The notes under the pieces are model-generated. The model ran no database searches. It was not told where the DNA came from and saw only the letters and a program-made list of their open reading frames with translations. Below are positions 48,278 to 64,000 of a stretch of 64,000 bases of DNA, piece by piece (the stretch's first letter is position 1; every line of letters starts with the position of its first letter). The DNA is from Kushneria phosphatilytica (GTDB lineage: Bacteria > Pseudomonadota > Gammaproteobacteria > Pseudomonadales > Halomonadaceae), in assembly GCF_008247605.1 (NCBI RefSeq), contig NZ_CP043420.1:868001-932000 (forward strand), in the 5' to 3' direction. A program made the position numbers and the translations under genes.

Positions 48278-48475
48278 GGGATAACTCTTTCAGTGGACAG
48301 GGCAGCCAGTATGTCAGCACCCTGTGCAAACAGCGTGCACTTTTCATCGTTGTTGTCACAAGCGTGTGTTCGCCTCGAAGAATGTGCTGTTTCGACCGCG
48401 GGAGAAGAGGGTTATCGGTATTGCCTTATCCATTGGTCTTAGGCGCTTGTGACGCTGCTCAGGCTCTGAAACAAT

Positions 48476-48497
48476 GCCATGTTATCGGTAACATGGC
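48476..48497. promoter_or_regulatory. GntR operator upstream of gntK
   Basis: GCCATGTTATC-GGTAACATGGC is a 22-bp palindrome with a single mismatch. It contains the ATGTTA...TAACAT arms and spacing of the E. coli GntR operator ATGTTACCGGTAACAT. It lies 20 bp before the gntK start. Confidence 0.85.
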
Positions 48498-48517
48498 GCG
48501 TCAACAGGGGTTTCATC

Positions 48518-49075
48518 ATGGCAAATGGCACGGAAGGTTACAGACTGAAGCGATCGCGCCGCATTGTGGTCATGGGCGTATCGGGCAGCGGAAAATCCAC
48601 CATTGGCGATGCCATCGGCGAACGTATGGGGATTCCTTATATCGATGGTGATCAGTATCACCCGCAGAACAACATCGAAAAGATGTCCCGCGGGGAACCG
48701 CTCAATGATGAGGATCGTGCGGGCTGGCTGGAACGGCTGGCTGAACTGATTGATGACTATCGCGAGCGCGACGAGACTGTGCTGGTGGGATGTTCATCAC
48801 TCAAGCACAGCTATCGCGATATCCTGCGTCGGGGCGACGAGAATCTGATCTTCCTGTTTCTCGACGGCAGCTATAACGTCATTCTCGGACGGATGCAGGA
48901 GCGCAAGCACTTCTTCTCGGCTGATATGCTGACGACCCAGTTCGACACACTGGAGCGGCCGGGTGAAGAGGAAGCGATGCGCGTCGACATCGATGTCGAC
49001 TTTCACGATGTCGTGGAAGCAGGCGTGCGCGCCATTGTCGACCGGGATGACGCGCTCACCGATCAGGGACGCTGA
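48518..49075 (+). CDS. gntK: Gluconokinase
   Basis: A 185-residue kinase making 6-phosphogluconate from gluconate. It has the P-loop VMGVSGSGKST, the family motif YIDGDQYHPQNNIEKMSRGEPLNDEDRAGWL and CSSLKHSYRDILR. The ATG at 48518 is chosen because the upstream ATG lies inside the operator; GGGG precedes it by 8 bases. Its stop codon directly abuts the stop codon of the convergent gntR. No gluconate permease is next to it. Confidence 0.93.
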   Translation: MANGTEGYRLKRSRRIVVMGVSGSGKSTIGDAIGERMGIPYIDGDQYHPQNNIEKMSRGEPLNDEDRAGWLERLAELIDDYRERDETVLVGCSSLKHSYRDILRRGDENLIFLFLDGSYNVILGRMQERKHFFSADMLTTQFDTLERPGEEEAMRVDIDVDFHDVVEAGVRAIVDRDDALTDQGR

Positions 49076-50107
49076 TCATTCGCCTCGAGCTCGGGTACTC
49101 TCCCGCAGCGCGATCTCGAAGCCGAGATCCTGCAGCGGTTGCGTAACCCGGCCGTTTTCCAGCCGGGAAAGCATCTGCGTAGCGGCGGCAATACCGATCC
49201 GGCGACGTGGCGTGACCACGGTGGACAGGGTCGGCGTTGTGGCCTCGGTAATATCGAGGCCATTATAGCCGGTCAGCCCGAGCTGATCGGGGACCGTGAT
49301 GCCCCGGCGCTGACACTCGAACAGGGCACCAGCGGCCAGGTCATCATTGCCGCAACAGACCATCTCCAATCCTGAATGACGCTCCAGCAGCGTGCCCAGC
49401 AGACATCCCCCCAATCGATAATCCGAAGGGGCTTCGGTCGTCAGACATGCGTCTGCACTCAATCCCGCTTCATTCAGTGCACGTTGCCAGCCAGCGAAGC
49501 GTCTGCGAGCGCGGTAATCCATGCGGGCGCCAATGAAGCCCAACTGTCGATAACCGAGCTCAAGCAGGGCGGTGGTCAGCGCGTGACCGGCAGCTTCATG
49601 GTCAAAACCGACGGCCATATCGAGGGGCGCTTCCGGCAGCTCCATGATTTCGCAGATCGGCAGTCCGGCTCGCGCCAGGCGCTGTCTGGCGCTTTCGGTA
49701 TGCTGACTGCCGGAAATAATGAAACCATCGACGCCAAAGGAGAGATAGGTATCGATCAGGTGGGCTTCTTCCTCGCGGGAGTAGCTGGTATGTCCCAGCA
49801 GTACCTGGTAACCGCTGCCAACAAAGCCTTCATCAACGCCCCGAATGACTTCCGAAAAAACCGCATTGGATAGCGAGGGTACCAGCAGGGCAATCGAGCG
49901 ACTGCGGGCGCTGGCCAGGGCACCAGCCTGGCGGTTGGGGATATAGCCGAGTTCGTCGATGGCTGCATCAATGCGCTGACGCAGCCCCTCCGAGACCCGC
50001 CAGGGTTCACGCAGGGCGCGCGAGATCGTGATCTTGCTGACCCCGACCCGGCGCGCAACATCATCAAGCGTGACACGACCGGAAGTGCGCCGCGTGCGTC
50101 GGGTCAT
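49076..50107 (-). CDS. gntR: Gluconate-responsive LacI-family regulator GntR
   Basis: A 343-residue repressor. The DNA-binding part reads VTLDDVARRVGVSKITISRALREPWRVS...AIDELGYIPNRQA, and the ligand domain contains LDMAVGFDHEAAG, CCGNDDLAAGALFECQRRGI and VVTPRRRIG, all very close to E. coli GntR. It should bind the palindrome before gntK and be released by gluconate. It starts 43 bp after the end of the lactonase gene on the same strand, so it may also be cotranscribed with the xylose genes, linking gluconate and pentose control. Confidence 0.9.
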   Translation of the reverse strand: MTRRTRRTSGRVTLDDVARRVGVSKITISRALREPWRVSEGLRQRIDAAIDELGYIPNRQAGALASARSRSIALLVPSLSNAVFSEVIRGVDEGFVGSGYQVLLGHTSYSREEEAHLIDTYLSFGVDGFIISGSQHTESARQRLARAGLPICEIMELPEAPLDMAVGFDHEAAGHALTTALLELGYRQLGFIGARMDYRARRRFAGWQRALNEAGLSADACLTTEAPSDYRLGGCLLGTLLERHSGLEMVCCGNDDLAAGALFECQRRGITVPDQLGLTGYNGLDITEATTPTLSTVVTPRRRIGIAAATQMLSRLENGRVTQPLQDLGFEIALRESTRARGE

Positions 50108-50150
50108 GCAGTGTCATGCTCCATCTTGCAGGTGATCATCAACCGCTGCT

Positions 50151-51026
50151 TTATCCTTCGGGGGGTTGATAGCGCTGGTCGGGCAGACCCGGGGTCTCTA
50201 CTCGCATCGAGAACAGCGAGCCGGATTCGGGCAGGCCCTCCAGTTGCTCATCAGTCAGCCCCTGGTTGGCCGTGGTGACATACAGGGTACAGCGATCAGC
50301 GTCACCGAAGGTCACCTTGGTCGGGTTGGGGGCCATCAAACGGTGTCGCTCGAGCAGATTGCCATGTTCATCGAAATGCGCCACGGCGCCGCCACCATAA
50401 AGCGCCAGCCAGTAATGGCCGTTTTCATCAACAGCCGCGCCGTCGGGATGGCCGTCGATATCAAGCTGGTTGAGGTCAATGAAGACCTCACCGGGGCCGA
50501 TGCTGCCCTGTTCGATATCGAAAGGGTGACGATGAACGATTCTGTTCGGCGTATCGGCATGGTAGAGCCAGGCATCATCAGGGCTGAAGGCCAGACCATT
50601 GGAGATGGTGATGCCATCAAGATGATGCCTGAAATCGCCCTGAAAGCTGAAAAGCGCGCCTTCGGGGTGAGACTCTTCGGCATGCTTGGTGCCGATCCAT
50701 AGCCGGCCGTGGCGGTCACAGCGGGCATCGTTGCACCATGCCAGTTCAGGCTGCTGCGGCCCGGGTGCGAGCAGTTCCAGCTTGTTGGCCTCGTCGTCGA
50801 GTCGCCAGAGACCTGAGCGCAGTCCTGCCAGAAAGCCGCCTGCCGGATGGACGGCGACACAGGCCAGCGCTTCGTCGACATGAAAAACCCTGTGCTCCCC
50901 GGTTTCCGGATTGAGCCGATAGAGGGCGCCCGAGGTAATATCGACCCAGAACAGCCGCCCCAGCTGGCCGTCCCACACCGGACCTTCGCCAAGGATCATG
51001 CGCAGGGGTACGTGCTGCTCCAGCAT
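50151..51026 (-). CDS. xylC: XylC-like sugar lactonase (SMP-30/gluconolactonase family)
   Basis: A 291-residue beta-propeller lactonase that opens the aldonolactone made by the sugar dehydrogenase. Metal ligands appear in LGEGPVWD (E14), ISNGLAFSPDDAWLYHADT and GHPDGAAVDENGHYW, as in the SMP-30 family. The pairing with XylX, XylD and XylB homologues points to xylono- or arabinono-lactone rather than gluconolactone. GGAG lies 7 bases before the ATG. It is followed by gntR and preceded by xylX (92 bp). Confidence 0.85.
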   Translation of the reverse strand: MLEQHVPLRMILGEGPVWDGQLGRLFWVDITSGALYRLNPETGEHRVFHVDEALACVAVHPAGGFLAGLRSGLWRLDDEANKLELLAPGPQQPELAWCNDARCDRHGRLWIGTKHAEESHPEGALFSFQGDFRHHLDGITISNGLAFSPDDAWLYHADTPNRIVHRHPFDIEQGSIGPGEVFIDLNQLDIDGHPDGAAVDENGHYWLALYGGGAVAHFDEHGNLLERHRLMAPNPTKVTFGDADRCTLYVTTANQGLTDEQLEGLPESGSLFSMRVETPGLPDQRYQPPEG

Positions 51027-51118
51027 GGTGCTCTCCGATGTTTGCCTTGAAGGCGTTTATTGTGACAGCTGAGTATGGGTGTTGTCGCGCTGGAGCAACA
51101 GCCTCCCCCGTGCGGCTG

Positions 51119-52312
51119 TCAGAACTCGGCTGCGCCGGAGGGCGGGGGAAAACGCTGTATCAGATGGCGATAGAGTGCGCGCACCCCCATTGTCCAGGGG
51201 GCAATGGCGTCGCTGCGATCGACCCGGTTGATCAGCGCACCCAGCCTGGGGGAGGAAATGGTGACCCGGTCGTTGACGTGATGGGTGAAGCCCTGACCTT
51301 CGCCATCGCGATCGTCGGTTGGAGAGAACATGGTACCCAGAAACAGCATGAATCCGTCGGGATACTGGTGGTGGCTACCGATCGTCTGTTCGACCAGGTT
51401 CATGGGGTCGCGACTGATCTCGCTCATGTGGCTGGCGCCCTCAATGACAAAATCATCATCCTCGCCTTCAATACGCATGTGCACACTCTCCTTGCGCACA
51501 TCGTCGATGGTATAGCGATAATCGAACAGACGAATGAAGGGGCCGATCGCACTGGAGCCATTGTTGTCCTTGGCCTTGCCCAGCAGCAGGGCACTGCGTC
51601 CTTCCATGTCGCGCAGATTGACATCATTGCCCAGGGTCGCGCCGCGCGCACGGCCACGGGAGTCAACCGCCAGCACGATTTCGGGTTCGGGATTGTTCCA
51701 GCGTGAGGCGGGATGCAGGCCGACAGCAGCACCGAAGCCGACTGACGCCATGGGGGGCGTTTTGGAGAAGACTTCCGCATCAGGGCCGATACCCACTTCG
51801 AGATACTGCGACCACTGACCACGTTCCTGCAGCTCACGCTTGAGCGTCATGGCTGCCTCGGAGCCTGGTGTAATGCTCGACAGGTCGCTGCCGATCAGGG
51901 CATGCAACTGCTCGCGGATCTCGCGTGCCTTGCCCGGGTCACCACCGGCCTGCTCCTCGATAACCCGTTCCAGCAGACTGACGGCAAAGGTGACGCCACA
52001 CGCCTTGACCATCTGCAGGTCACAGGGCGCCAGCAGCCGCTCGGTGTGCGGGCTGGCATCGATCGAACGCTCAAGCCAGGGCAACAGGGGGCCCAGATCC
52101 TCGCCGGGGGCGGTATGAACCAGCTCATGAAGATCGTCGTGCTCGAGCAGGTCGGCCATGGTAGACGCATGCGCGGTAATATCATGGAGATGGCCGTTGC
52201 GAACGGTCACTATAGCGGGGCCGCCGATCGGGGCTCCCCGCCAGACACGGCCGACCAGCGTCGCTTCGTCCAGATCATCGGGCAGACAGGTCCGGGGGTC
52301 GATGGCTTGCAT
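51119..52312 (-). CDS. xylX: XylX-like 2-keto-3-deoxy-sugar-acid dehydratase (FAH family)
   Basis: A 397-residue FAH-fold enzyme. It probably removes water from 2-keto-3-deoxyxylonate or -arabonate to give 2-oxoglutarate semialdehyde. Metal-binding and active-site stretches are WNNPEPEIVLAVDSRG, GNDVNLRDMEGRSALLLGKAKDNNGSSAIGPF and DGFMLFLGTMFSP. In Caulobacter xylX accompanies xylB, xylC and xylD, as here. The ATG at 52312 has AAGGAA 9 bases upstream; a frame from 52399 adds a non-family tail. A plain fumarylacetoacetate hydrolase is the less likely alternative. Confidence 0.8.
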   Translation of the reverse strand: MQAIDPRTCLPDDLDEATLVGRVWRGAPIGGPAIVTVRNGHLHDITAHASTMADLLEHDDLHELVHTAPGEDLGPLLPWLERSIDASPHTERLLAPCDLQMVKACGVTFAVSLLERVIEEQAGGDPGKAREIREQLHALIGSDLSSITPGSEAAMTLKRELQERGQWSQYLEVGIGPDAEVFSKTPPMASVGFGAAVGLHPASRWNNPEPEIVLAVDSRGRARGATLGNDVNLRDMEGRSALLLGKAKDNNGSSAIGPFIRLFDYRYTIDDVRKESVHMRIEGEDDDFVIEGASHMSEISRDPMNLVEQTIGSHHQYPDGFMLFLGTMFSPTDDRDGEGQGFTHHVNDRVTISSPRLGALINRVDRSDAIAPWTMGVRALYRHLIQRFPPPSGAAEF

Positions 52313-52435
52313 GAATACGGTTTCCTTGAAACAAACCCGTGCCCTTGGCCGACATCGGGTATCAGGGCAGATATGCGGCGGGTCGTGTGATCGGCCCACC
52401 GTGACACAATAATGACGACAGAAGCATCACTTCGG

Positions 52436-53833
52436 TCAACGACCGATTCGTCGCAATGCACGGCCAGCCATCAGGTTCCGTTCAATGTTCTCCAGTGAGA
52501 TGCCCTTCGTTTCCGGTAGCAGCGCCAGAGTGAGGAGAATGAACAGGAAGTTCAGGCCCGCATAAAGCCAGAAGGTATGGGCATTGCCCAGGGTGTTGAG
52601 CAAGGTCAGGAAGGTGGCCCCAATGATCATGTTGGCTACCCAGTTGGTTACCGTCGAGCAGGCAACGCCGAAATCCCGTCCCTTGAGCGGCTGAATCTCG
52701 GAGCACAGGATCCACACCATGGGGGCTGCCGACATGGCATAGCTGATCACGAAGAGCCCCAGCAGCGAGAGCGCAAAATATTTGGCGAAGGTACTGGCCA
52801 GACCGTATTCGTAGAGAACACCGAGCAGCACCATGCAGGTCCCCATCACGGTAAACCCGATATACAGCAACGGTTTACGTCCGACGCGATCCACGAAGCC
52901 GATGGCAATGAACGTGGCCAGTGTCATGACCAGCCCGATAATGACGGTTCCCCAGAGTTGTTGTGAGGCACTGTCGTAGCCTGCCAGCTCCAGAATTCGT
53001 GGGGCATAGTAAAGAATCACGTTGGCACCGGTGAACTGCTGCATGAACTGCAGCACCATGCCCAGTCCGACCGATCGCCGGAAGTTGGTGTTCGAGCGGA
53101 ACAGCTTCCAGCCTGCATCGCTGACGTTGAGACTTTCGCGGATGCGTCCCATCTCGGTATCCACCTGTTCACGATCATGGCCGCGCAGGCGCATCAGTAC
53201 ACGTCTGGCTTCTTCATCGCGATGACTGCTGGCCAGCCAGCGCGGGCTGCGCGGCAGGACGATCATGCCCAGTACCAGTAGTACAGCGGGAATGGCTATT
53301 ACGCCGAGCATCCAGCGCCAGCCACCGGAATAGCTGAAGGCAGCGTTGGAAAGATAGGCCACCAGAATGCCGCCCATGATCATCAGCTGATAAAACGAGA
53401 TCAGGGTGCCACGAATACGCTCGGGAGCGATTTCCGAAAGATAGATGGGTGCGATGTAGGACGAGATACCTACGGCGACGCCGAGCACGATCCGGGCGCC
53501 GATCAGTGCCTCGGGGGACCATGCCAGTGCCGAGGTCAGGGCCCCGGCGATGAAGATGATGCCGCTGATGGCCAGGGTCAGCTTGCGACCGAAACGGCGT
53601 GAGAAGAAACCGCCCCCGGCAGCGCCGAAGGCAGCCCCGAACATCATCGAACTGACGATGATCTCCTGGGTCTGGTCGCTGATGTGGAACTCTTGCTCGA
53701 TAAAGGGCAGGGCCCCGGATATGACACCGATATCCATGCCGAACAAAAGGCCGGCGAGGGCAGCAATGGCGCCAATTACGTAGACGACCGGCATGGCCTT
53801 GCGATCATCGGAAATTGCGGATGAAGAAGTCAT
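52436..53833 (-). CDS. MFS sugar porter (XylE/AraE/GalP-like)
   Basis: A 465-residue, 12-helix sugar-proton symporter. The family signatures are present: GLLFGMDIGVISGALPFI, RRFGRKLTLAISG, GRIVLGVAVG-like, PRSPRWLASSHRDEEARRVL, DRVGRKPLLYIG and PETKGISLE. It most probably imports a pentose or galactose for the oxidative pathway. GGAG is 6 bases before the start. A tandem palindromic operator lies 50-80 bp upstream, identical in layout to the one before xylD. xylX follows on the same strand after 123 bp. Confidence 0.9.
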   Translation of the reverse strand: MTSSSAISDDRKAMPVVYVIGAIAALAGLLFGMDIGVISGALPFIEQEFHISDQTQEIIVSSMMFGAAFGAAGGGFFSRRFGRKLTLAISGIIFIAGALTSALAWSPEALIGARIVLGVAVGISSYIAPIYLSEIAPERIRGTLISFYQLMIMGGILVAYLSNAAFSYSGGWRWMLGVIAIPAVLLVLGMIVLPRSPRWLASSHRDEEARRVLMRLRGHDREQVDTEMGRIRESLNVSDAGWKLFRSNTNFRRSVGLGMVLQFMQQFTGANVILYYAPRILELAGYDSASQQLWGTVIIGLVMTLATFIAIGFVDRVGRKPLLYIGFTVMGTCMVLLGVLYEYGLASTFAKYFALSLLGLFVISYAMSAAPMVWILCSEIQPLKGRDFGVACSTVTNWVANMIIGATFLTLLNTLGNAHTFWLYAGLNFLFILLTLALLPETKGISLENIERNLMAGRALRRIGR

Positions 53834-53879
53834 GGTGACTCCGGGGTTTCAGTGGACAGGAAGGTCTGACGAAACTGAA

Positions 53880-53916
53880 TTCATGTTGAACATAACTGCT
53901 GAATGTTCAACATGAA
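53880..53916. promoter_or_regulatory. Tandem palindromic operator upstream of the sugar porter gene
   Basis: Two 11-bp palindromes, ATGTTGAACAT (53883-53893) and ATGTTCAACAT (53903-53913), have centres 20 bp apart. Together they form a larger inverted repeat with 14-bp perfect arms (53880-53893 and 53903-53916) around 9 bases. The first palindrome is 50 bp from the start codon at 53833. The pattern recurs before xylD. Confidence 0.8.
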
Positions 53917-54010
53917 CTTTGGTGGCAGAAGTCGCACGATCCGCGTAATTCGGGCTCGGTAGCAGTGCAATCATTGCTGTGGTTGGCGGGCGGTGCCAGG
54001 AATCCCGTGA

Positions 54011-55357
54011 TCAGGGACAGCCATGCCTGGAGGGGGTGTGGGGAGTCTCGAGCAAAACTGCACAGGTGTCGCGAGAGAGGACCTCATCAAACCCTTCCCG
54101 AGCGTCGCTGCTGCCCTGGAAGTACAGGGTGCGTTCGATATGTTCGACTGCACGCATGGCTCCTCCAGCCGAAGCGATCTCCTCGCTGAGGGTCAATGCT
54201 TGTCGACGATAGTTCGGCGCCGTCAGCAGGTGTTCCAGTGCCGAAGTCAGGCGGGCGACGGTCAGGTTTTGAGGCTTGAGCTGCAACCCCAGCTCATGGT
54301 GTACAAGACGTGCGGCAACACCTGGTTGATCGTAAGCCAGTGGAATGGCCAGTATTGGCACAGCGGCGCTCAGTGCATCCAATACCGTATTGAGGCCGCC
54401 GTGACTGATGCAGACATCACAGTGAGCAAGCAGATCCCGTTGTGGGATATGGGCCACGACTCGGGTGGCATCGACCGTGGCGGCCTGGTGAGGTGTCAGG
54501 CAGCCGCAGTGTGAAATGATCAATTGCACATCAAGACGGCGACAGGCTCGCGCCAGCAACCTGAAAATATCCAGGCGGTGGCCTTGCAATGTCCCCAGTG
54601 AGGCATAGATCAGCGGTCGTGCAGGGTCAATGGAAGCATCAAGTACGGGCGAAGATATCTCATCCATGGAAGAGCGAAGCGGGCCGACGGGCACCAGATG
54701 AGCGCTTTGTGACGTTCGGGGGAAGTCCAGGCCCGGTACGGTCTGGGTAATGCACTGCAGTTGGGAAATACAGTCATGCAGTTCGAAACGCGGGGGCAAT
54801 CCCCACTGTCTGGCCCAGTGAGCGATGGCACGATTATGACGTCGCATCAGCCAGCGTGAGATGTTCTCGGCGACGCGGTTATGCTCCTCGCCCCTGGCAG
54901 TAGGATCATGGCGCCAGCCAAGCCAGGGAGGGGGAATGCCGGTATCACGGTCGATGGGAAGCGCCGAGGCAATCGAGACCAGCGGCAGTTGCAGATGCGC
55001 GGCGACCAGTCCTGCCCCGGCCTCCATCTGATCGCCCAGCACGATATCCACATTGCGCTCCCTGAGTAGTCCGGGTGCTTGCTGACAGAGTCTGTCGGTG
55101 CGTTCTGTCAGATCGCCAACCGTTTGGATCAGAGCTGGGGTCAAGCGCCTTTTCAGGCCGGCAATAGGCCGTCCGGCAAGTGCGGGGGAGGCCTCGAGCA
55201 GGCACACCTCAATGTTCGGATGCTGCAGGCGAAGTGTTGCACCTATGGGCAGTATGAACGTTACGACATGCCCGCGGGCAACCAGTTGCTCTGCCAGGCT
55301 CTCGAATACCCGCAGGTGACTGGCGTATGGCGGGCAGATCAGCGCGAGATGAGACAT
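54011..55357 (-). CDS. crtX: CrtX-like glycosyltransferase
   Basis: A 448-residue UGT-type GT-B enzyme. The N-terminal MSHLALICPPYASHLRVFESLAEQLVARGHVVTFI is very like zeaxanthin glucosyltransferase CrtX. The donor-binding region has IYASLGTLQGHR, VVAHIPQRDLLAHCDVCISHGGLNTVLDALS and PLAYDQPGVAARLVHHELG, including the H-GG-N signature. CrtX adds glucose to zeaxanthin, but no crtE, Y, I, B or Z gene lies in the window, so another acceptor (a sterol-like lipid, macrolide or other carotenoid) is possible. The start at 55357 has GGAAAA upstream. It separates the two xylose units. Confidence 0.75.
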   Translation of the reverse strand: MSHLALICPPYASHLRVFESLAEQLVARGHVVTFILPIGATLRLQHPNIEVCLLEASPALAGRPIAGLKRRLTPALIQTVGDLTERTDRLCQQAPGLLRERNVDIVLGDQMEAGAGLVAAHLQLPLVSIASALPIDRDTGIPPPWLGWRHDPTARGEEHNRVAENISRWLMRRHNRAIAHWARQWGLPPRFELHDCISQLQCITQTVPGLDFPRTSQSAHLVPVGPLRSSMDEISSPVLDASIDPARPLIYASLGTLQGHRLDIFRLLARACRRLDVQLIISHCGCLTPHQAATVDATRVVAHIPQRDLLAHCDVCISHGGLNTVLDALSAAVPILAIPLAYDQPGVAARLVHHELGLQLKPQNLTVARLTSALEHLLTAPNYRRQALTLSEEIASAGGAMRAVEHIERTLYFQGSSDAREGFDEVLSRDTCAVLLETPHTPSRHGCP

Positions 55358-55528
55358 GGTATTTTCCGTAACAGTGCAGAATCCGAGCCTGGCAGGGGCT
55401 CGATCCGAACGCCCACCCAACTGCCACGACAGGTCAGAGCAGGGCACCGCCGGGCTGATGGAATGGGCCTTGGCCCGATCCCGGCCCGCTGATGCCGCTT
55501 ATGAGCAGGTCATTTCGAGCATGCCAAC

Positions 55529-56071
55529 ATGAGCAGAAGGATTACTGTACAGCGTATCGCGGGTATTGCGACCGTGCCTGTCATTCAGCTGCTCTGGCTG
55601 CGTCTGATGGGACGCAGTTACTTCTGTCCGTGTGGAGAAATCCACCTCTGGCAGGGACAACTGGATCCGGCGCGAAATGCCCAGCAGTTTGCCGACTGGT
55701 ATTCGCTGCTGCATGTGATCTTCGGTATGGGGGTGTACACACTCCTGACTTTGATGCGCCCTGGCTGGCGGCTGTATGAGCGGGCCATGATGGCACTGCT
55801 CAGTAGTGCCATCTGGGAGATAATGGAGAATGCGCCCTGGATTATCGAAGTTATCAATCGCTCATCTCAGGGGCCCCATTATAGTGGTGACAGCATTCTC
55901 AATTCACTGGAGGATACCCTGTTTGCCATGATCGGCTTCCTGCTTGGCTGGCGTTTGCCGAAATGGAGTCTGCTGCCACTGGCCGCAGCGCTGGAAATCA
56001 GCGTATCGCTGGCAATTCACGATGGGCTGATTCTCGGCACACTGCGGCTGATGGGAGGCAATGTTGACTGA
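55529..56071 (+). CDS. UPF0314 (DUF2585) membrane protein
   Basis: A 180-residue inner-membrane protein with about five helices. The UPF0314 hallmarks are GEIHLWQGQLDPARNAQQFADWYSLLHVIFGMG, WEIMENAPWIIE and GDSILNSLEDTLFAMIGFLLGWRLP. The function is unknown. There is no clear ribosome site. It is the only plus-strand gene in this section, divergent from the CrtX-like gene and tail-to-tail with the SDR gene (3 bp apart). Confidence 0.8.
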   Translation: MSRRITVQRIAGIATVPVIQLLWLRLMGRSYFCPCGEIHLWQGQLDPARNAQQFADWYSLLHVIFGMGVYTLLTLMRPGWRLYERAMMALLSSAIWEIMENAPWIIEVINRSSQGPHYSGDSILNSLEDTLFAMIGFLLGWRLPKWSLLPLAAALEISVSLAIHDGLILGTLRLMGGNVD

Positions 56072-56074
56072 AAC

Positions 56075-56845
56075 TCAGCACCAACCGCCGTCGATAACGT
56101 ACTCCTGGGCGCTGCACTGTGCGCTGTCATCGGCGGCCAGAAAGAGCACCGTAGGGGCAACATGTTCCGGTGTCAGCTCGGTCTTCAGACACTGATGCGC
56201 AAGGATGTTGTCGAGATCCTCAGGTGAAATCCACAGCTCCTTCTGACGCTCGGTCATGATACAACCCGGAATAACGGTATTGACCCTGATGCCGGAGGCG
56301 CCCAGATCTCGCGCCATGGTGCGCGTCAGGCCGTGCACGGCAGCCTTGGCGGTGGTATAGCCCGGCATGTTGCCCTGGGCGAGCTTCCAGCTGATCGAAC
56401 CGAAGTTGATGATCGAGCCTCCACCCAGTCGTTCCATCTGCGGCGCGACGGCCTGAATGGCGAAGAACTGCGGACGCAGATTGATGGCCATGCGCTCGTC
56501 CCAGTATTCCGGCGTCACCTCCCGCCAGTCGTGACGATCGTCACGTGCTGCATTGTTGACCAGTACACCGATCGGGCCGTGTTCCTGTTCCACCCGCGCG
56601 ATGACCTCCTGCAGGGCCTTGATATCGCGAATATCGCAGGGCTCGAAATGCGGCGCGTTGCCGGTTTCGCGCTCCAGATCGTTGACCAGCTGTCGGCTGG
56701 GCTCTTCGGCGATATCGATAAAGACCACGCGAGCCCCCTGCTGGCAGAAGGCGCGAGTGAGGGCCGCACCGATGCCGCTACCGCCCCCGGTGATGAAAAC
56801 GGTTTTATTGCTCAGACTGGGATAGCGCGCATTTTCAGAAGCCAT
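56075..56845 (-). CDS. xylB: XylB-like SDR aldose dehydrogenase (D-xylose 1-dehydrogenase)
   Basis: A 256-residue classical SDR. The cofactor loop is TGGGSGIGAAL; NNAARDDRH follows, and the catalytic Ser-Tyr-Lys lie in NFGSISWKL...YTTAKAAVHG. Its sequence pattern (YPSL start, DDRH, YWDERM, NFGSISW, CLK near the end, YVIDGGW) closely follows Caulobacter XylB, which oxidises D-xylose to xylonolactone with NAD. The start at 56845 has AAGGA 7 bases upstream and matches the XylB N-terminus; an ATG at 56863 is possible. It is the last gene of the xylD unit. Confidence 0.85.
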   Translation of the reverse strand: MASENARYPSLSNKTVFITGGGSGIGAALTRAFCQQGARVVFIDIAEEPSRQLVNDLERETGNAPHFEPCDIRDIKALQEVIARVEQEHGPIGVLVNNAARDDRHDWREVTPEYWDERMAINLRPQFFAIQAVAPQMERLGGGSIINFGSISWKLAQGNMPGYTTAKAAVHGLTRTMARDLGASGIRVNTVIPGCIMTERQKELWISPEDLDNILAHQCLKTELTPEHVAPTVLFLAADDSAQCSAQEYVIDGGWC

Positions 56846-56940
56846 GATGTTGTCCTTGTCCATGAGAATTGAGGTAAGCAGAGCGCACTGTCTCTGCCCG
56901 GGTCGTAACGAAAGTCCGAGGTTGATCAGGTTCGGACGAG

Positions 56941-57870
56941 CTATTCATCAAAGGGCGCAACCACGATACGCTCGGCAAGCATGAAAGCATCTGCCACATG
57001 ACGGAAAGGACGCACATCGACCTCACTTTGTCCCGCATCGATCAGCTCGGCGAAGCGCCGATAGAGTCCTGCATACTCGACATCTTCGCCGTCAATCAGT
57101 ATCTCGCCATCAATACTCAGCCGGCTGCCCCCTTCCTCGAGCAATAGCGTGCCTCTTTCGGTTTCCACGGTGATCTGCCAGGTCTGTGGGCCAGTCTGCC
57201 GCCAGTCAAAATCGGCATGAATGGGCGTTTCACCGGCATCGGTGAAATCCAGTTCGGCCGCGATGGGGGCCTGGCAGTTCTCCGGTACCTCCAGCCGGGC
57301 GCGTTCAAGAAAGAACTCGTTCGGCAGGATGCGGGTCATGATCGACAGGGCATTGATGCCGGGATCGAAAACCCCCAGTCCACCAGGCTGCCAGACCCAT
57401 TGTTGGCCGGGATGCCAGGTGCGTACATCTTCGCGCCACTGTACGTCGACATGGCGTATGGCGGCACTGCCAAGCCATTCCCGTGCGCGTTCCACCGCGG
57501 CAGCTTCACGGGCATGCCAGCTGGCAAAAAGGGTAACGCCAGTCTGTCGGGCCCGCTCAGCCAGGTCTTCGACCTCGCTGAGTGTCACTCCGGGAGGTTT
57601 CTCCAGAAAGACGTGTCGGCCGGCATTGATCGCCGCACAGGCTTGTCGATAGCGAACCTGGGGAGGCGTGCACAGCGAGACGGCATCAAGCTCGGGCGCC
57701 CCCTCCAGCATGGCATCAAGCGTGTCGAAACTCCTGATGCCATTAATATTGGCGTTACGGCTGGCACTGGCGATCAGTTCGAAACGCTCATTACGTTCAA
57801 GCGCCGGGAGATGCTGATCACGGGCGATCTTGCCTACGCCGGTAATGCCGATACGTATGGGAGAACTCAT
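56941..57870 (-). CDS. gal: Gfo/Idh-family aldose 1-dehydrogenase (L-arabinose / D-galactose type)
   Basis: A 309-residue NAD(P)-dependent dehydrogenase. The Rossmann part begins IRIGITGVGKIARDQHLPAL; LCTPPQVRY and the catalytic EKPPG follow, then WREDVRTWHPGQQWVWQPGGLGVFDPGINALSI, the signature of Pseudomonas D-galactose dehydrogenase and Azospirillum L-arabinose dehydrogenase. It would make the lactone of a sugar that XylB does not use well. AAGGA precedes the ATG at 57870. It lies between xylD and xylB, in the same orientation. Confidence 0.85.
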   Translation of the reverse strand: MSSPIRIGITGVGKIARDQHLPALERNERFELIASASRNANINGIRSFDTLDAMLEGAPELDAVSLCTPPQVRYRQACAAINAGRHVFLEKPPGVTLSEVEDLAERARQTGVTLFASWHAREAAAVERAREWLGSAAIRHVDVQWREDVRTWHPGQQWVWQPGGLGVFDPGINALSIMTRILPNEFFLERARLEVPENCQAPIAAELDFTDAGETPIHADFDWRQTGPQTWQITVETERGTLLLEEGGSRLSIDGEILIDGEDVEYAGLYRRFAELIDAGQSEVDVRPFRHVADAFMLAERIVVAPFDE

Positions 57871-57978
57871 CAATCGATCCTTGTCCGGATTGAACACTAC
57901 GCGAAAGCGTAGCGAACCTCAGGCGACATGCTACCGCTCAATCCGGCGCTTCCGGAGGCAGGACATGTCGGTGTTGGG

Positions 57979-59769
57979 TCAGTGATTATCGCGCGCCTCG
58001 CCATGAGTCTCGATGATACGAATAAATTCCGTTGCCGGTTCCATGCAGGCGCCCTGACCGTGCTGGCCGACCGTACGGCGATGGAGCTCCTGCCAGGGGC
58101 TCTGACTGGGCGCAATGGCGGGCGTCCACTGGCTGCGGCGAAGGGCGAGTACCTCGTCGCTGATCAGCACATCGACGCGATACTCGCTGAGATCGACTCG
58201 GACCCGGTCACCGGTCTCCAGTAGGGCCAGATTGCCTCCCCTGGCGGCTTCAGGTGACACATTGAGAATCGAGGGGCTGGCCGAAGTGCCACTTTGGCGT
58301 CCATCTCCCATGGTGGGCAGAACGGTGATGCCACGTTTGAGGAGTGCGGCCGGTGGCTGCATGTTGACCACCTCGGCGCCGCCCGGGTAGCCGATCGGCC
58401 CGCTATTGCGAATCACCAACAGTGAGTGCTCGTCGATTCCGAGTCCGGGATCATCGATACGAGCGTGATAATCCTCGGGTCCTTCGAATACCACGGCGTT
58501 ACAGGTGAATACGCCTGGTTGTTCGGGATCACAAAGAAAGCGTGCCCGAAATTCCGTGTCGATGACACTGGTCTTCATGATGGCGCTGTCGAACAGGTTA
58601 CCGCTGAGCACCACATAACCGGCAGATTCCCGCAATGGCTCGCTGTAAGAGCGAATCACATCATGATCAGGCTCGCTGACGTTAGCCAGATTCTCGCCCA
58701 GAGTCCGACCGGTGACCGTTCGGGCCTGCGGCTTGAGTACGCCTGCACTCAGCAATTCACGCAGTACTCCGGGTACGCCGCCGGCTCGGTAGAAGGCTTC
58801 CCCCAGATAACGACCGGCCGGCTGACAGTCGACCAGCAAGGGGATATGACGGCCCAGCCGATGCCAGTCATCAAGCGTGTGATCCACACCCATATGACGG
58901 GCGATGGCGATCATGTGAATAGGGCAATTCGATGAGCCGCCCAGCGCCGAGGCGGCAATCACGGCATTCTCGAAGGCTTCACGAGTCATGATATCCGAGG
59001 GGCGCAGGTTTTCATGCACCATCTCAACGATACGCTTGCCGGTCGCATGGGCCATCCAGCCTCGTTCGCGGTAGGGGGCAGGAATGGCGGCACAGCCCGG
59101 CAGCGACATGCCGATCACTTCTGCCAGCGCGTTCATCGACAGCGCTGTGCCCATGGTATTGCAGTGGCCGATCGAGGGAGACGATGAGGCGACCATCTGC
59201 ATGAACTCCCGATAATCGATCTCGCCGGCCGCATGGCGCTTGCGGGCCTCCCAGATGGTTGTGCCGGAACCGGCCAGCTGACCCTGCCACCAGCCGTTGA
59301 GCATGGGGCCGCCCGAGAGCACGATGGCCGGGATATTGACCGTGGCCGCTGCCATCAGACAGGCCGGTGTGGTCTTGTCACAGCCGGTCAGCAGGACCAC
59401 GCCATCGAGTGGATAACCGTGCAGGATCTCGACCAGCCCGAGATAGGCGAGATTGCGATCCAGCGCGGCGGTTGGTCGCCGTCCCTGTTCGGCCAGCGGA
59501 TGCACCGGGAATTCCATGGGAATGCCGCCAGCGTCGCGAATACCCTCTCGTACGCGCCTGGCCAGTTCCAGATGGTGGCGATTGCAGGGCACAAGATCGC
59601 TGCCGGTCTGAGCGATGCCGATAACTGGCTTGCCGGACTGCAGTTCTTCCAGGGTGATCCCACTGTTCATGTAGCGCTCGACGTAAAGTGCTGTCATGCC
59701 CGGGTTATCGGGATTGTCGAACCAGCGACGAGAGCGCAGGAAGGCCGATGTATTGGAAGGATCCGTCAT
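57979..59769 (-). CDS. xylD: XylD-like sugar-acid dehydratase (IlvD/Edd family)
   Basis: A 596-residue iron-sulfur dehydratase, nearly the length of Caulobacter XylD (595). It makes 2-keto-3-deoxyxylonate from xylonate, and perhaps from arabonate. The three cluster cysteines are C62, C130 and C203 (SDLVPCNR; TGCDKTTPAC; GHCNTMG); QTGSD, PAPYRERGWMA and DGRQSGTSASPSILN are also conserved. It is the first gene of the unit xylD-gal-xylB and carries the tandem operator upstream. Confidence 0.9.
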   Translation of the reverse strand: MTDPSNTSAFLRSRRWFDNPDNPGMTALYVERYMNSGITLEELQSGKPVIGIAQTGSDLVPCNRHHLELARRVREGIRDAGGIPMEFPVHPLAEQGRRPTAALDRNLAYLGLVEILHGYPLDGVVLLTGCDKTTPACLMAAATVNIPAIVLSGGPMLNGWWQGQLAGSGTTIWEARKRHAAGEIDYREFMQMVASSSPSIGHCNTMGTALSMNALAEVIGMSLPGCAAIPAPYRERGWMAHATGKRIVEMVHENLRPSDIMTREAFENAVIAASALGGSSNCPIHMIAIARHMGVDHTLDDWHRLGRHIPLLVDCQPAGRYLGEAFYRAGGVPGVLRELLSAGVLKPQARTVTGRTLGENLANVSEPDHDVIRSYSEPLRESAGYVVLSGNLFDSAIMKTSVIDTEFRARFLCDPEQPGVFTCNAVVFEGPEDYHARIDDPGLGIDEHSLLVIRNSGPIGYPGGAEVVNMQPPAALLKRGITVLPTMGDGRQSGTSASPSILNVSPEAARGGNLALLETGDRVRVDLSEYRVDVLISDEVLALRRSQWTPAIAPSQSPWQELHRRTVGQHGQGACMEPATEFIRIIETHGEARDNH

Positions 59770-59819
59770 GTGGGAGGGTGATCCGGTTACGGGATTACCA
59801 GGCTGGAGTCATTTTTTGA

Positions 59820-59850
59820 ATGTCTGACATAATCGGCTGGTGTTCAACAT
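59820..59850. promoter_or_regulatory. Tandem palindromic operator upstream of xylD
   Basis: ATGTCTGACAT (59820-59830) and GTGTTCAACAT (59840-59850) have centres 20 bp apart, as in the site before the sugar porter gene. The first palindrome begins 51 bp from the xylD start. The flank CCTTGGTGG on the right also matches that of the other copy (CTTTGGTGG). Confidence 0.8.
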
Positions 59851-59863
59851 GGACCTTGGTGGT

Positions 59864-59887
59864 ATACGCCAGCCCGGGCTGGCGTAT
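59864..59887 (-). terminator. 24-bp perfect palindrome after the sugar ABC transporter genes
   Basis: ATACGCCAGCCC is followed directly by its exact reverse complement, 8 bases past the ATPase stop codon. It should fold as a strong hairpin and separate the transporter unit from the xylD promoter. No T-run follows; a protein-binding role is possible. Confidence 0.55.
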
Positions 59888-59894
59888 GGAAGGC

Positions 59895-60682
<788 letters not shown>

Positions 60683-60686
<4 letters not shown>

Positions 60687-61717
60687 GTTTTTCCCCTTGC
60701 CCGCAGGCGACTGAGGTGCACGTTCATGATCATGGTGATCACGATGGCCAGACCGAGGATCATGTCGAAGGTGTAGGCGCTGACCCCGGAGATGGTGAAG
60801 CCATCCTTGAGAATGGCCAGTACCAGGGCGCCCAGTAGCGCACCAATGACCGTTCCCGAGCCGCCGGAGAGCAGCGTGCCCCCGATGACAGCCGAGGCAA
60901 TGGCCATGAACATGATTTCGGTGCCCCCCGAAAGAGGGTCTATGGAACCGATACGGAAGGCATCAAGGATGCCGGCCAGGCCGCCCAGCATGCTGCACAG
61001 CATGAAGTTGCCGATCTTGATTCGCCCGGTACGAATACCGATCTGTGAGGCGCCCAGCGGGTTACCACCCGTGGCGATGGTGTGCAGCCCCCAGCGGGTG
61101 CGAAACAAAATGAACTGAAAGATCAGCGCTATGGCTGCCATCCAGATCAGCGCCCCGAAAACGTTACCGCCCAGAACAGCCGTCCAGAAATCACCTGCCT
61201 CGGGCTGTACCGGGAACCCCCCGGAGATGGTCAGTGTCAGGCCCTGGATAAAGAACAGCATGCCCAGTGTCGTCACGAAGGAGGAGACGCCCAGGCCGAT
61301 AGTGATCAGCCCGTTGATCAGCCCGATCAGCGCTGCAACTACCAGTCCCAGCACGATGGCAATGCCCAGTGGCAGTCCCGCCTGCTGGGCGAAGTACATG
61401 ACGAAGGGGGTGAGGGCATAGACCTGACCCACCGATAGGTCCAGCTCACCGCAGATCAGTACCATGACTTCGCCGGCGGCGATGATGGCGACCGCCGTTG
61501 CGAACTGCGAAAGCACTCCAATGTTGTTGATGGTCAAAAAGGCCGGAGACGTCGCCTGGAAGTAGATGACCAGTACAATGGCTGCCAGCAGGATGCTGGC
61601 TTCACGCCACTGTGCCATTTTACGGCCTACCCCGGAGAAGCCACCGACCTTGCCTTTTGTGGCTGCCGGCCCCTGGGTGGACCGGCTGTCTGCATTCTGG
61701 TGATCGGATGTCGTCAT
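60683..61717 (-). CDS. Sugar ABC transporter permease (FrcC/RbsC-like)
   Basis: A 344-residue permease with a long cytosolic N-terminus and about ten helices. BPD-type motifs of the RbsC family are AAGEVMVLICGELDLSVGQVYALT, GLINGLITIGLGVSSFVTTLGMLFFIQGL and SQIGIRTGRIKIGNFMLCSMLGGLAGILDAFR. It begins 3 bases after the binding-protein stop, with no good ribosome site, so translation is likely coupled. Confidence 0.9.
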
Positions 61718-61720
61718 GCG

Positions 61721-62827
61721 TTATTCAACCGTAATGGGGCCGGAGCGCTTGACCAGTTGAGGCTGTCGGCTGTTGCCTTCGAACCGGGTTTTGGTATCGA
61801 GATAGGGCTGGACGCTCTCCTGGGTGACGAACTTCAGACCGGTATTGATGTTGGCCGGACCGGTCAGTCCACCCGACAGCTTGAACAGGAAGAGTTCGAG
61901 TACGGTGTAGAACCCCTGCAGATAAGGCTGTTGATCGATAGTGAAGTCCATGGCGCCGGCCTTGATGGCATCCAGAGTGCCAGGCAGCATGTCGAGGCCC
62001 CCGGCCCTGACGCCCTGCTCATGCAGATTGTGCTTTTGCATCAGCTTGCCGACAGCCATGGTGCTACCCGCATCGACAGCAAACATGGCCTTGACGTCCT
62101 TGTGGCCCAGATACCAGGACTCGACCCGGGAAACCTCCTCGTTAACGGTAGGGCCGGTAGCGACTTCACGTAGCTGAATATTTTTGCCGGATTCCTTGAT
62201 GGCCTCTTTGGCACCATCGAGTCGAGGCTGAATATTGAGCTGCCCGGGTGTGGCGATGAAACCGGCAACTTCTCCCCCGTCCACCATGGAGGCGATACGT
62301 GCGCCCAATGCCTTGCCGGCCAGAAACAGATCCTGACCGACATAGGCCAGCCGATGGTTGTCGACATCCGCGTTGTAGGAAATAACCGGTATACCGGCCT
62401 GCAGGGCGCGATCGACAGGGTTGTTGAAGGCATTCGGGTCGACCAGGGCAATGGCCAGCCCGTCAGCCCCGCCGGCAATGGCAGCATTGATCGAATTGAC
62501 CATTTCACTGGCGATCGACTTCTGCGATCCGGTCCACTGATAGGTGCAACCCAACAGGGCACAGGCGTCCTCGATGCCGTACTGGGTGGCGACAAAGAAC
62601 GGATTGGTGGTGACGTGATTGACGAAAACGAACTTCCATTTCGGATGTTCGGGAAAGTTGCCGGCCCCGCCACCGTCTGCTGCCCGAGCCAGTCCCGGCA
62701 TCCCCAGTCCGAGGGCGCCAAGTGACGCCAGTGCCCCGGTGCCTACTGCTCGCCTGAGCAGGGCGCGTCGCGAGGGTTCCATTTCCTTCATGGTTTCTTC
62801 ATCCAGTGATGGGTGCTGCTCTTTCAT
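61721..62827 (-). CDS. Sugar ABC transporter binding protein with a Tat-type signal
   Basis: A 368-residue periplasmic binding protein of the ribose/xylose class (KWKFVFVNHVTTNPFFVATQYGIEDACALLGC; AGIPVISYNADVDNHRLAYVGQDLFLAGKALG; FAVDAGSTMAVGKLM). The leader has a long N-region followed by SRRALLRRAVG and a weakly hydrophobic core to ARA, matching a twin-arginine signal rather than a Sec one; such signals are uncommon for sugar-binding proteins. The ATG at 62827 has GGAG 9 bases upstream; a frame from 62869 is less likely. It is the first of three ABC genes and follows the mutarotase gene by 46 bp. Confidence 0.85.
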   Translation of the reverse strand: MKEQHPSLDEETMKEMEPSRRALLRRAVGTGALASLGALGLGMPGLARAADGGGAGNFPEHPKWKFVFVNHVTTNPFFVATQYGIEDACALLGCTYQWTGSQKSIASEMVNSINAAIAGGADGLAIALVDPNAFNNPVDRALQAGIPVISYNADVDNHRLAYVGQDLFLAGKALGARIASMVDGGEVAGFIATPGQLNIQPRLDGAKEAIKESGKNIQLREVATGPTVNEEVSRVESWYLGHKDVKAMFAVDAGSTMAVGKLMQKHNLHEQGVRAGGLDMLPGTLDAIKAGAMDFTIDQQPYLQGFYTVLELFLFKLSGGLTGPANINTGLKFVTQESVQPYLDTKTRFEGNSRQPQLVKRSGPITVE

Positions 62828-62873
62828 GATGTTGTTCTCCGGTGGGCGTCGCTTTTCAGGGGGTGTCACGACT

Positions 62874-63977
62874 TCAAAGCGGCAGGAACTTGAAAATGGT
62901 GGTCTGGGTATAGGGTTGGCCCGGATTCAGCCGTGTTGAAGGGAAGTCCGGCTGATTGGGTGAATCGGGAAAGTGCTGTGCTTCAAGCGTGAAACCACCC
63001 CAGTGCTGATAGGTCTTGCCGTTCTTGCCCTTGATCTGTTTGAGAAAATTACCGGTATAGAACTGTACGCCCGGTTCGGTGGTATACATTTCCACCTGAC
63101 GGCCGGATTCCGGATCAATGACCCGGGCATCAAGCGCCATGGGCTTACCGGGGTTGTCGAGCACCCAGTTGAGGTCGTAGCCACCCTGGTCGGGTTCGGC
63201 ATAATGCAACTGAGGGTGGTCAGCATGGATGCGTGCCCCGATGGGTGTGAGCTGCCGGAAATCCATCGGGGTGCCCTGTACCGTGGCGATCTCCCCGGTA
63301 GGAATCAGCTGCTCGTTCATCGGCGTATAGTGGGAAGCATTGATCATTGCCAGCTGGTCGAGCACTGTGCCTTTGCCAGCGCCGGCAAGATTGAAATAAG
63401 TATGATTGGTCAGATTGATGACCGTCGGGGCATCGCTGATGGCGGTATAGTGGATACGCAGTTCGTTATCGTTGTTGAGCGTATAGCGTACGGTAACGGT
63501 CAGGTCGCCGGGGAACCCCATCTCGCCATCAGGGGAGAGCGTGCTGAGTTCTACCCCTCGCCAGCCGTTACCCTTGATGGTATGTGCCTTCCAGACATGT
63601 GTGTCGAATCCCTCAGGGCCACCATGGAGGGCATTGGGGCCGTTATTGGCAGGTACCTGATACTGGCTGCCATCGAGGGTGAATCGGCCACCGGCCAGTC
63701 GATTGGCATAGCGGCCGATCAGAGCACCAAAATAGGTATGATTTTTCTGTTGATCATCGAGATAACCCTGCAGCGTATCGTAGCCCAGAGCGATATCATC
63801 GAAGTGCCCATTCTTGTCCGGTACCCGAATGGATTGCACGATACCGCCATAGGTTAGAATGGAAACTTCCATGCCATTATTATTGGTCAGTTGATACCGC
63901 TTTATTTCCTGTCCATTGGGTAGTTTGCCGAAGTTGGAAATGCTGATATCACTTTGATGCTGCATGTCTGATTTCAT
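62874..63977 (-). CDS. galM: Aldose 1-epimerase (mutarotase)
   Basis: A 367-residue mutarotase that interconverts alpha and beta anomers of aldoses, supplying the anomer the dehydrogenases use. Active-site residues lie in GRYANRLAGGRF, NALHGGPEGFD, VINLTNHTYFNL and EAQHFPDSPNQPDFPSTRLNPGQ. It is closer to Acinetobacter Mro than to E. coli GalM, but unlike Mro it has no signal peptide in this frame. The start at 63977 is near the window edge, so an earlier start cannot be excluded. It heads the transporter unit. Confidence 0.85.
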   Translation of the reverse strand: MKSDMQHQSDISISNFGKLPNGQEIKRYQLTNNNGMEVSILTYGGIVQSIRVPDKNGHFDDIALGYDTLQGYLDDQQKNHTYFGALIGRYANRLAGGRFTLDGSQYQVPANNGPNALHGGPEGFDTHVWKAHTIKGNGWRGVELSTLSPDGEMGFPGDLTVTVRYTLNNDNELRIHYTAISDAPTVINLTNHTYFNLAGAGKGTVLDQLAMINASHYTPMNEQLIPTGEIATVQGTPMDFRQLTPIGARIHADHPQLHYAEPDQGGYDLNWVLDNPGKPMALDARVIDPESGRQVEMYTTEPGVQFYTGNFLKQIKGKNGKTYQHWGGFTLEAQHFPDSPNQPDFPSTRLNPGQPYTQTTIFKFLPL

Positions 63978-64000
63978 TGAAGTCTCATGGCCGCTGGTGC

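Follow-up and report, generated by a model that had tools for sequence, protein, structure and literature searches.

Paired palindromes before two pentose gene units of Kushneria phosphatilytica: predicted operators of an AraR2-type regulator

In a 64,000-nucleotide stretch of the Kushneria phosphatilytica genome (contig NZ_CP043420.1, positions 868,001 to 932,000 of the forward strand; hereafter the window), two units of sugar genes on the minus strand, one headed by a porter gene and the other by xylD, are each preceded by a closely similar pair of short palindromes, which raises the question of what protein would read these pairs and to what end. We propose that they are probably the operators through which an AraR2-type FCD regulator, encoded 614 bp beyond the window, controls a single regulon for the oxidation of pentose (xylose and/or arabinose), with two dimers per operator repressing transcription until a sugar acid releases them. 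An uncharacterised pentose-oxidation cluster thereby gains a likely regulator and a precise predicted operator.

Operator pairs and their rarity in the genome

Direct inspection of the sequence bore out the elements described in a sequence-only reading of the window: two pairs of 11-bp palindromes of the form ATGTN3ACAT-N9-ATGTN3ACAT, at 53883-53913 and 59820-59850, each with a centre spacing of 20 bp, each beginning about 50 bp from a start codon (50 and 51 bp as measured), and each followed by a shared flank, present at 53916-53925 and 59853-59862. The features concerned are these:

52436..53833, minus strand: MFS sugar porter, the first gene behind operator 1 (TIGR00879, 430 bits, over cut-off; PF00083)
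53883..53913, no strand assigned: operator 1, ATGTTGAACAT-AACTGCTGA-ATGTTCAACAT on the plus strand, 50 bp upstream of the porter start codon
53914..53925, plus strand: flank module of operator 1, GAACTTTGGTGG, on the gene-distal side, with ACTTTGGTGG at 53916-53925
57979..59769, minus strand: xylD, an IlvD/Edd aldonate dehydratase, the first gene behind operator 2 (NF009560, over cut-off)
59820..59850, no strand assigned: operator 2, ATGTCTGACAT-AATCGGCTG-GTGTTCAACAT on the plus strand, 51 bp upstream of the xylD start codon
59851..59862, plus strand: flank module of operator 2, GGACCTTGGTGG, on the gene-distal side, with ACCTTGGTGG at 59853-59862

Three of the four 11-mers (beginning at 53883, 53903 and 59820) are exact copies of ATGTNNNACAT, and the fourth, GTGTTCAACAT at 59840-59850, departs from it by one mismatch. 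All four contain GT-N3-AC, the form described for operators of the FadR subfamily (PMC4494728), as had been surmised from their N-GT-N3-AC-N core. Lone 11-mers at no more than one mismatch occur 18 times in the window against 19.35 expected, which is not above chance, so that the signal is carried by the pairing. No pair-like match in 40 first-order Markov sequences as long as the window came closer than 3 mismatches of 16 (the best had 3 in five sequences, 4 in 21 and 5 in 14), whereas the window holds one pair with none and one with a single mismatch. Throughout the genome (3,624,619 bases, about 3.62 Mb) the pair at one mismatch or fewer is found only at operators 1 and 2, and not in the random scatter that the sequence-only reading had named as the outcome that would tell against it; weaker matches comprise one place with 2 mismatches and three with 3. 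The pattern of palindrome plus flank returns the same two places, the next nine having 3 mismatches. A weight matrix built on the pairs of relatives gives the operators 44.5 and 22.5 bits, and no other place in the window reaches zero.

A doubtful third pair, TTATTGAACAT-N10-ATGTCGTACAT, lies beyond the window between the regulator and epimerase genes described below (L019:14339-14370, equivalent to G000:C1:932338-932369). Its centres are 21 bp apart, and it is conserved in Kushneria sinocarnis and lacks the flank. Its score of 12.9 is near the 12.2 of a partial match beside operator 1, and we leave it as doubtful.

The regulator gene and its company across the family

The sequence-only reading had stated that the window contains no FadR-type gene, and indeed none of the 12 FCD matches in the genome falls inside C1:868001-932000; one, however, stands just past the window's end. 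The gntR gene, named there as the only nearby regulator, is the nearest within the window. The gene (G000:C1:932614-933387, minus strand, its ATG start picked by comparison with relatives) is of GntR/FadR type and lies upstream of the aldose epimerase gene, beyond which it shares locus and strand with the pentose genes. Its product, of 257 residues, combines an N-terminal GntR-type winged helix-turn-helix (PF00392, 54.9 bits against a cut-off of 27) with a C-terminal FCD effector domain (PF07729, 67.5 bits against 24.3). D156, H160 and H204, which would belong to a metal site, do not vary among 40 sequences. In its own genome, where 13 of 18 first-look candidates were scored, the sole match at E ≤ 1e-30 is the regulator itself. 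K. sinocarnis has the next closest copy, at 85% identity, and in a search of 293 genomes across the order two genomes from outside the family (G201 and G436) gave a match at E ≤ 1e-60. The protein is a candidate ortholog of AraR2, a regulator whose existence in Halomonas was predicted in 2017 (PMC5507952), on the strength of gene order: the order at one relative's locus (L115) matches the published operon.

To inventory the pair in the family we surveyed 201 genomes, with the reversed pattern as control and match positions taken from among the matches listed. At one mismatch or fewer the pair occurs in 113 genomes and 13 of 24 genera (reversed control, 2 of 201). It was found in 112 of the 124 genomes with a close ortholog of the regulator (a match at E ≤ 1e-80) against one of the 77 without (G136), the latter including 28 that have a weaker regulator match only. 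The palindrome-plus-flank pattern, again at one mismatch or fewer, occurs in 99 genomes (reversed control, 1 of 201), and one or other pattern in 123 of the 124 genomes with a close ortholog against two of the 77 without (G136 and G160). More distant relatives of the regulator, sharing about 48-51% identity with it, form a second clade in genomes of the family (for example at G029:C16, G005:C4 and G062:C1:3063), and the pair is nearly absent where only a second-clade match occurs (1 of 28). Backed by both co-occurrence and position, the FCD gene just outside the window is a well-supported candidate for the likely regulator of the pairs.

Forty stretches were fetched from relatives, 16 of them chosen by regulator position alone, with the positions of pairs unknown at the time of choice and the per-genome pair counts in view; these 16 include five ortholog genomes with a pair count of zero and one genome, G011, with a weaker regulator match only. 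Nine of the 16 contain the pair at one mismatch or fewer and three more at 2 mismatches. Together with the window's own locus, the stretches yielded 49 pairs at no more than 2 mismatches in 41 loci, many of the compared promoters being orthologous and hence not independent. Of these pairs, 41 have a gene related to the window's cluster starting within 135 bp and 44 have one starting within 313 bp, the starts being homology-based estimates made for cluster-related genes alone; behind these 44 stand 25 aldonate dehydratases, seven Gfo/Idh dehydrogenases, six porters, three FAH-type proteins, two epimerases and, once, the regulator. Five pairs have no cluster-related gene within 1.2 kb (L092, L098:9125, L100, L104 and L115:6377). 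The pattern is accordingly not absent from relatives, the other outcome named as adverse at the outset, and is found upstream of their related pentose genes. In K. sinocarnis the counterpart of operator 1 is exact (L081:12453-12483) and that of operator 2 has 2 mismatches. There (G103, L081:8139-8169) xylD is gone from its place, with a 35% match at best elsewhere in the genome, and the degenerate operator persists before the next gene, for a Gfo/Idh dehydrogenase.

The spacing within the pair is fixed. With the gap left free from 0 to 30, the spacer is nine bases in all 35 places that have two exact copies of ATGTTNAACAT; among pairs in the fetched loci with no more than one mismatch overall and spacings allowed up to 60 bp, 45 are spaced at 20 bp, two at 21 and one at 50. 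The centre base is G in the left 11-mer and C in the right in 33 of the 35 exact pairs (36 of 49 at no more than 2 mismatches), which gives the pair as a whole a dyad. The fixed spacing of two turns suggests two dimers side by side, and is no more than compatible with a cooperative two-dimer repressor.

The flank first recorded as CTTTGGTGG belongs to a conserved module, ACTTTNGT, which at one mismatch or fewer stands 2 bp outside one end of 42 of the 49 pairs, and once at other offsets from 0 to 16. Among flanked pairs that have a labelled gene no more than 400 bp away (36 distinct pairs), the module is gene-distal in 12 (Kushneria and several other genera) and gene-proximal in 24 (Halomonas-like genera), and since it is found on either side relative to the gene it is better read as part of the operator than of the promoter. 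In the Halomonas-like genera, where the flank follows as ATACTTT, it might also serve as a -10 box; its position in Kushneria, on the side away from the gene, shows that it is not simply the promoter. At L107:8545-8565, L110, L111, L112, L115-L117 and others of these genera it continues as ATACTTTNGTATG..TCGAC, a longer conserved block of the promoter region. A sequence logo drawn from 41 of the 49 pairs, seven without flank and one duplicate being left out, took flanked pairs only, and its flank positions are therefore inflated by selection. From its recurrence the shared flank is a conserved third module of the predicted operator, with a putative role in assembly.

The proposed switch, its gene cluster and competing explanations

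What we infer from these features is binding by the FCD regulator, with repression rather than activation and perhaps cooperativity. Two AraR2-type dimers, one per 11-bp palindrome, would sit two helical turns from each other on one face of the DNA, some 50 bp from the start codons, and the ACTTTNGT module at one end may help to anchor the assembly, perhaps as a flanking half-site. With sugar absent, this complex would block both promoters; a pentonate or related sugar acid, binding the FCD domain as inducer, would release it.

Besides the porter and xylD, the cluster holds the genes listed next; those for the lactonase and the FAH-family protein stand with the porter gene behind operator 1, and those for the Gfo/Idh dehydrogenase and the SDR stand with xylD behind operator 2:

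50151..51026, minus strand: SMP-30/gluconolactonase-type sugar lactonase (PF08450)
51119..52399, minus strand: FAH-family protein, probable 2-keto-3-deoxypentonate dehydratase (open reading frame as listed, start uncertain; relatives 9kkt and 2q18)
56075..56863, minus strand: SDR, probable D-xylose 1-dehydrogenase (NF053674, 356 bits against a cut-off of 400, just below)
56941..57897, minus strand: Gfo/Idh-type aldose 1-dehydrogenase (open reading frame as listed; closest to D-galactose and L-arabinose 1-dehydrogenases)
59895..62869, minus strand: sugar ABC transporter genes for ATPase, permease and substrate-binding protein (profile matches)
62874..63977, minus strand: aldose 1-epimerase (start possibly further upstream, beyond the window)

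Judged from sequence, the cluster looks like an oxidative pentose pathway; the "two-unit xylose regulon" of the sequence-only reading keeps its two sugar units, and its sugar is better called pentose (xylose and/or arabinose). The FAH-family protein has no Pfam or NCBIfam match at E ≤ 0.001. The sugar ABC ATPase (59895-60686), of 263 residues, covers the first half only of models of about 500 residues such as YtfR and XylG. Two further genes lie within the cluster: a UDP-glucosyltransferase-like gene (PF00201; 54011-55447), on the same strand upstream of the porter operator and kept in K. sinocarnis at 71% identity, and, on the opposite strand, a gene for a DUF2585 protein (55529-56071). A likely alpha-ketoglutarate-semialdehyde dehydrogenase is encoded far from the cluster (G000:C1:3462898-3464469; 69% to the aldehyde dehydrogenase of the L115 ara locus). 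A search for RNA elements in 48000-64000 gave no Rfam match at gathering score.

Several observations count against the proposed repressor switch. Operator 2 is imperfect by its one mismatch, the regulator gene has no pair upstream of it in this genome, and none lies close to the gene for the semialdehyde dehydrogenase that the pathway needs at its end (the best match in the fetched locus has 5 mismatches). A consensus sigma-70 promoter was sought at both operators and none was found, so that overlap with a promoter is not supported. Among relatives, the flank is missing from seven of the 49 pairs, and no pair is present in four of the 16 stretches centred on the regulator (L086, L103, L109 and L118, the last with a weaker regulator match only). 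As to the survey, the line at 1e-80 was drawn after the scores had been viewed, at a gap from 1.4e-82 to 4.0e-75, and both the genome counts and the Fisher probability of the co-occurrence, p = 3e-41, ignore kinship.

A more elaborate form of the switch would treat the operator as an asymmetric element of three modules, with mirror-symmetric palindromes 20 bp apart and a directional ACTTTNGT 2 bp outside one end, pointing toward or away from the gene, on which a pair of AraR2 dimers, joined by one more subunit or dimer, would form a polar repression complex working in either orientation. We regard this as tentative, and more doubtful than not by a good measure; if true, such an assembly is one not described for GntR/FadR regulators in the literature found.

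Among rival explanations, the one that survives best is that the regulator acts as an activator, or that the flank, if not the entire element, is bound by another protein, such as a LysR-type AraR like that of Halomonas. A second regulator, of LysR type, is reported at the Halomonas ara locus (PMC5507952), the flank is a separate conserved module found on either side of the pair, and no promoter consensus overlaps the operators. Yet the related DgoR is described as a repressor (PMC12288454), and the element tracks the FCD regulator across the family; we therefore consider this rival unlikely.

A second rival, that the LacI-type GntR binds the pairs, involves two features outside the pentose regulon:

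48479..48494, no strand assigned: likely operator of the LacI-type GntR, before gntK; ATGTTATCGGTAACAT, a 16-bp even palindrome
49076..50107, minus strand: gntR, LacI-type regulator (NF052440, 383 bits against a cut-off of 400)

No regulator gene inside the window is nearer than gntR, and the arms of the pairs, ATGTT/AACAT, resemble those of GntR operators. The form of a LacI-type GntR operator, an even palindrome of about 16 bp, is nevertheless not that of the pairs, which are odd 11-mers 20 bp apart. A palindrome of its own type stands before gntK here, presumably resembling the E. coli GntR operator, and recurs at the gntR/gntK loci L081 and L090; four further stretches (L082, L113, L114 and L118) have gntK with neither gntR nor such a palindrome, so that this GntR operator rests on three loci. 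With a gntR ortholog (at least 45% identity) in only two of the 40 relative stretches, each at most 20 kb, we reject GntR as the binder and judge this rival very improbable. Chance resemblance, suggested by the background frequency of lone 11-mers in the window, is rejected as practically negligible given uniqueness in the genome, the fixed spacing and the family survey, in which 113 genomes and 13 genera compare with two control genomes.

Comparison with known systems

We found no paper on this operator in Kushneria in a literature searched largely without subscription journals. The nearest system is the regulon of AraR2, a GntR-family regulator predicted in two Halomonas species, with araD-araT-araR2-araA, araE, a TRAP transporter and a lactonase (Leyn et al. 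2017, PMC5507952). At L115 the order behind the pair is ILVD, transporter-like gene, regulator and GFO, with aldehyde dehydrogenase and TRAP-like genes nearby, the transporter labels being our reading of the sequences. Both systems have a GntR-family regulator of oxidative pentose genes in the Halomonadaceae. The system here differs in that its regulator gene adjoins a cluster of epimerase and ABC transporter genes, that one predicted operator serves a porter unit and the other a xylD unit, and that the gene for the semialdehyde dehydrogenase is found elsewhere with no site of its own. The site definition could be put to the test across the Halomonadaceae, where the GntR-type AraR2 regulon is a prediction only in the literature found.

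By sequence search the closest solved relative of the regulator is E. coli DgoR (7c7e), at a level of about 30%. DgoR acts as a repressor at two inverted repeats that lie close together over its promoter, and D-galactonate is its effector (PMC12288454, PMC7674646); it thus shares with the predicted system the FadR type and two nearby inverted repeats at one promoter, and its effector is a sugar acid, but it has one operon, and its operator, TTGTAGTACAA, has other arms. E. coli NanR likewise places GntR-family dimers side by side at a rigid spacing, although it does so with three dimers on (GGTATA)3 direct hexamer repeats rather than on odd palindromes 20 bp apart, and its cooperativity works through an N-terminal extension of 32 residues (PMC8012715). 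Atu1419 is again an FCD regulator with a short ATGT/ACAT palindrome and more than one site per region; it differs in being a VanR-type tetramer on ATGTATACAT, a 10-bp even palindrome, with sites 109-190 bp apart and looping (PMC7797058).

In the FadR subfamily at large, palindromes have 3 nt between GT and AC, double sites keep a constant distance, and additional, weaker boxes lie 7-12 nt from palindrome centres, with their role left open (Suvorova et al. 2015, PMC4494728); the accessible part of that survey names no such Halomonas group. The AC of the flank described here, 8-9 nt from the centre of the right-hand palindrome, is like these boxes, and the flank is unlike them in being one-sided and longer (ACTTTNGT). 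Its conservation would make the role of an extra half-site beside GntR-family palindromes addressable on one short DNA fragment. Since both double sites and extra half-sites have precedents among FadR-type regulators, the operator belongs to a known kind, and the switch it would form, as predicted from sequence, is a well-supported but fairly ordinary sugar switch.

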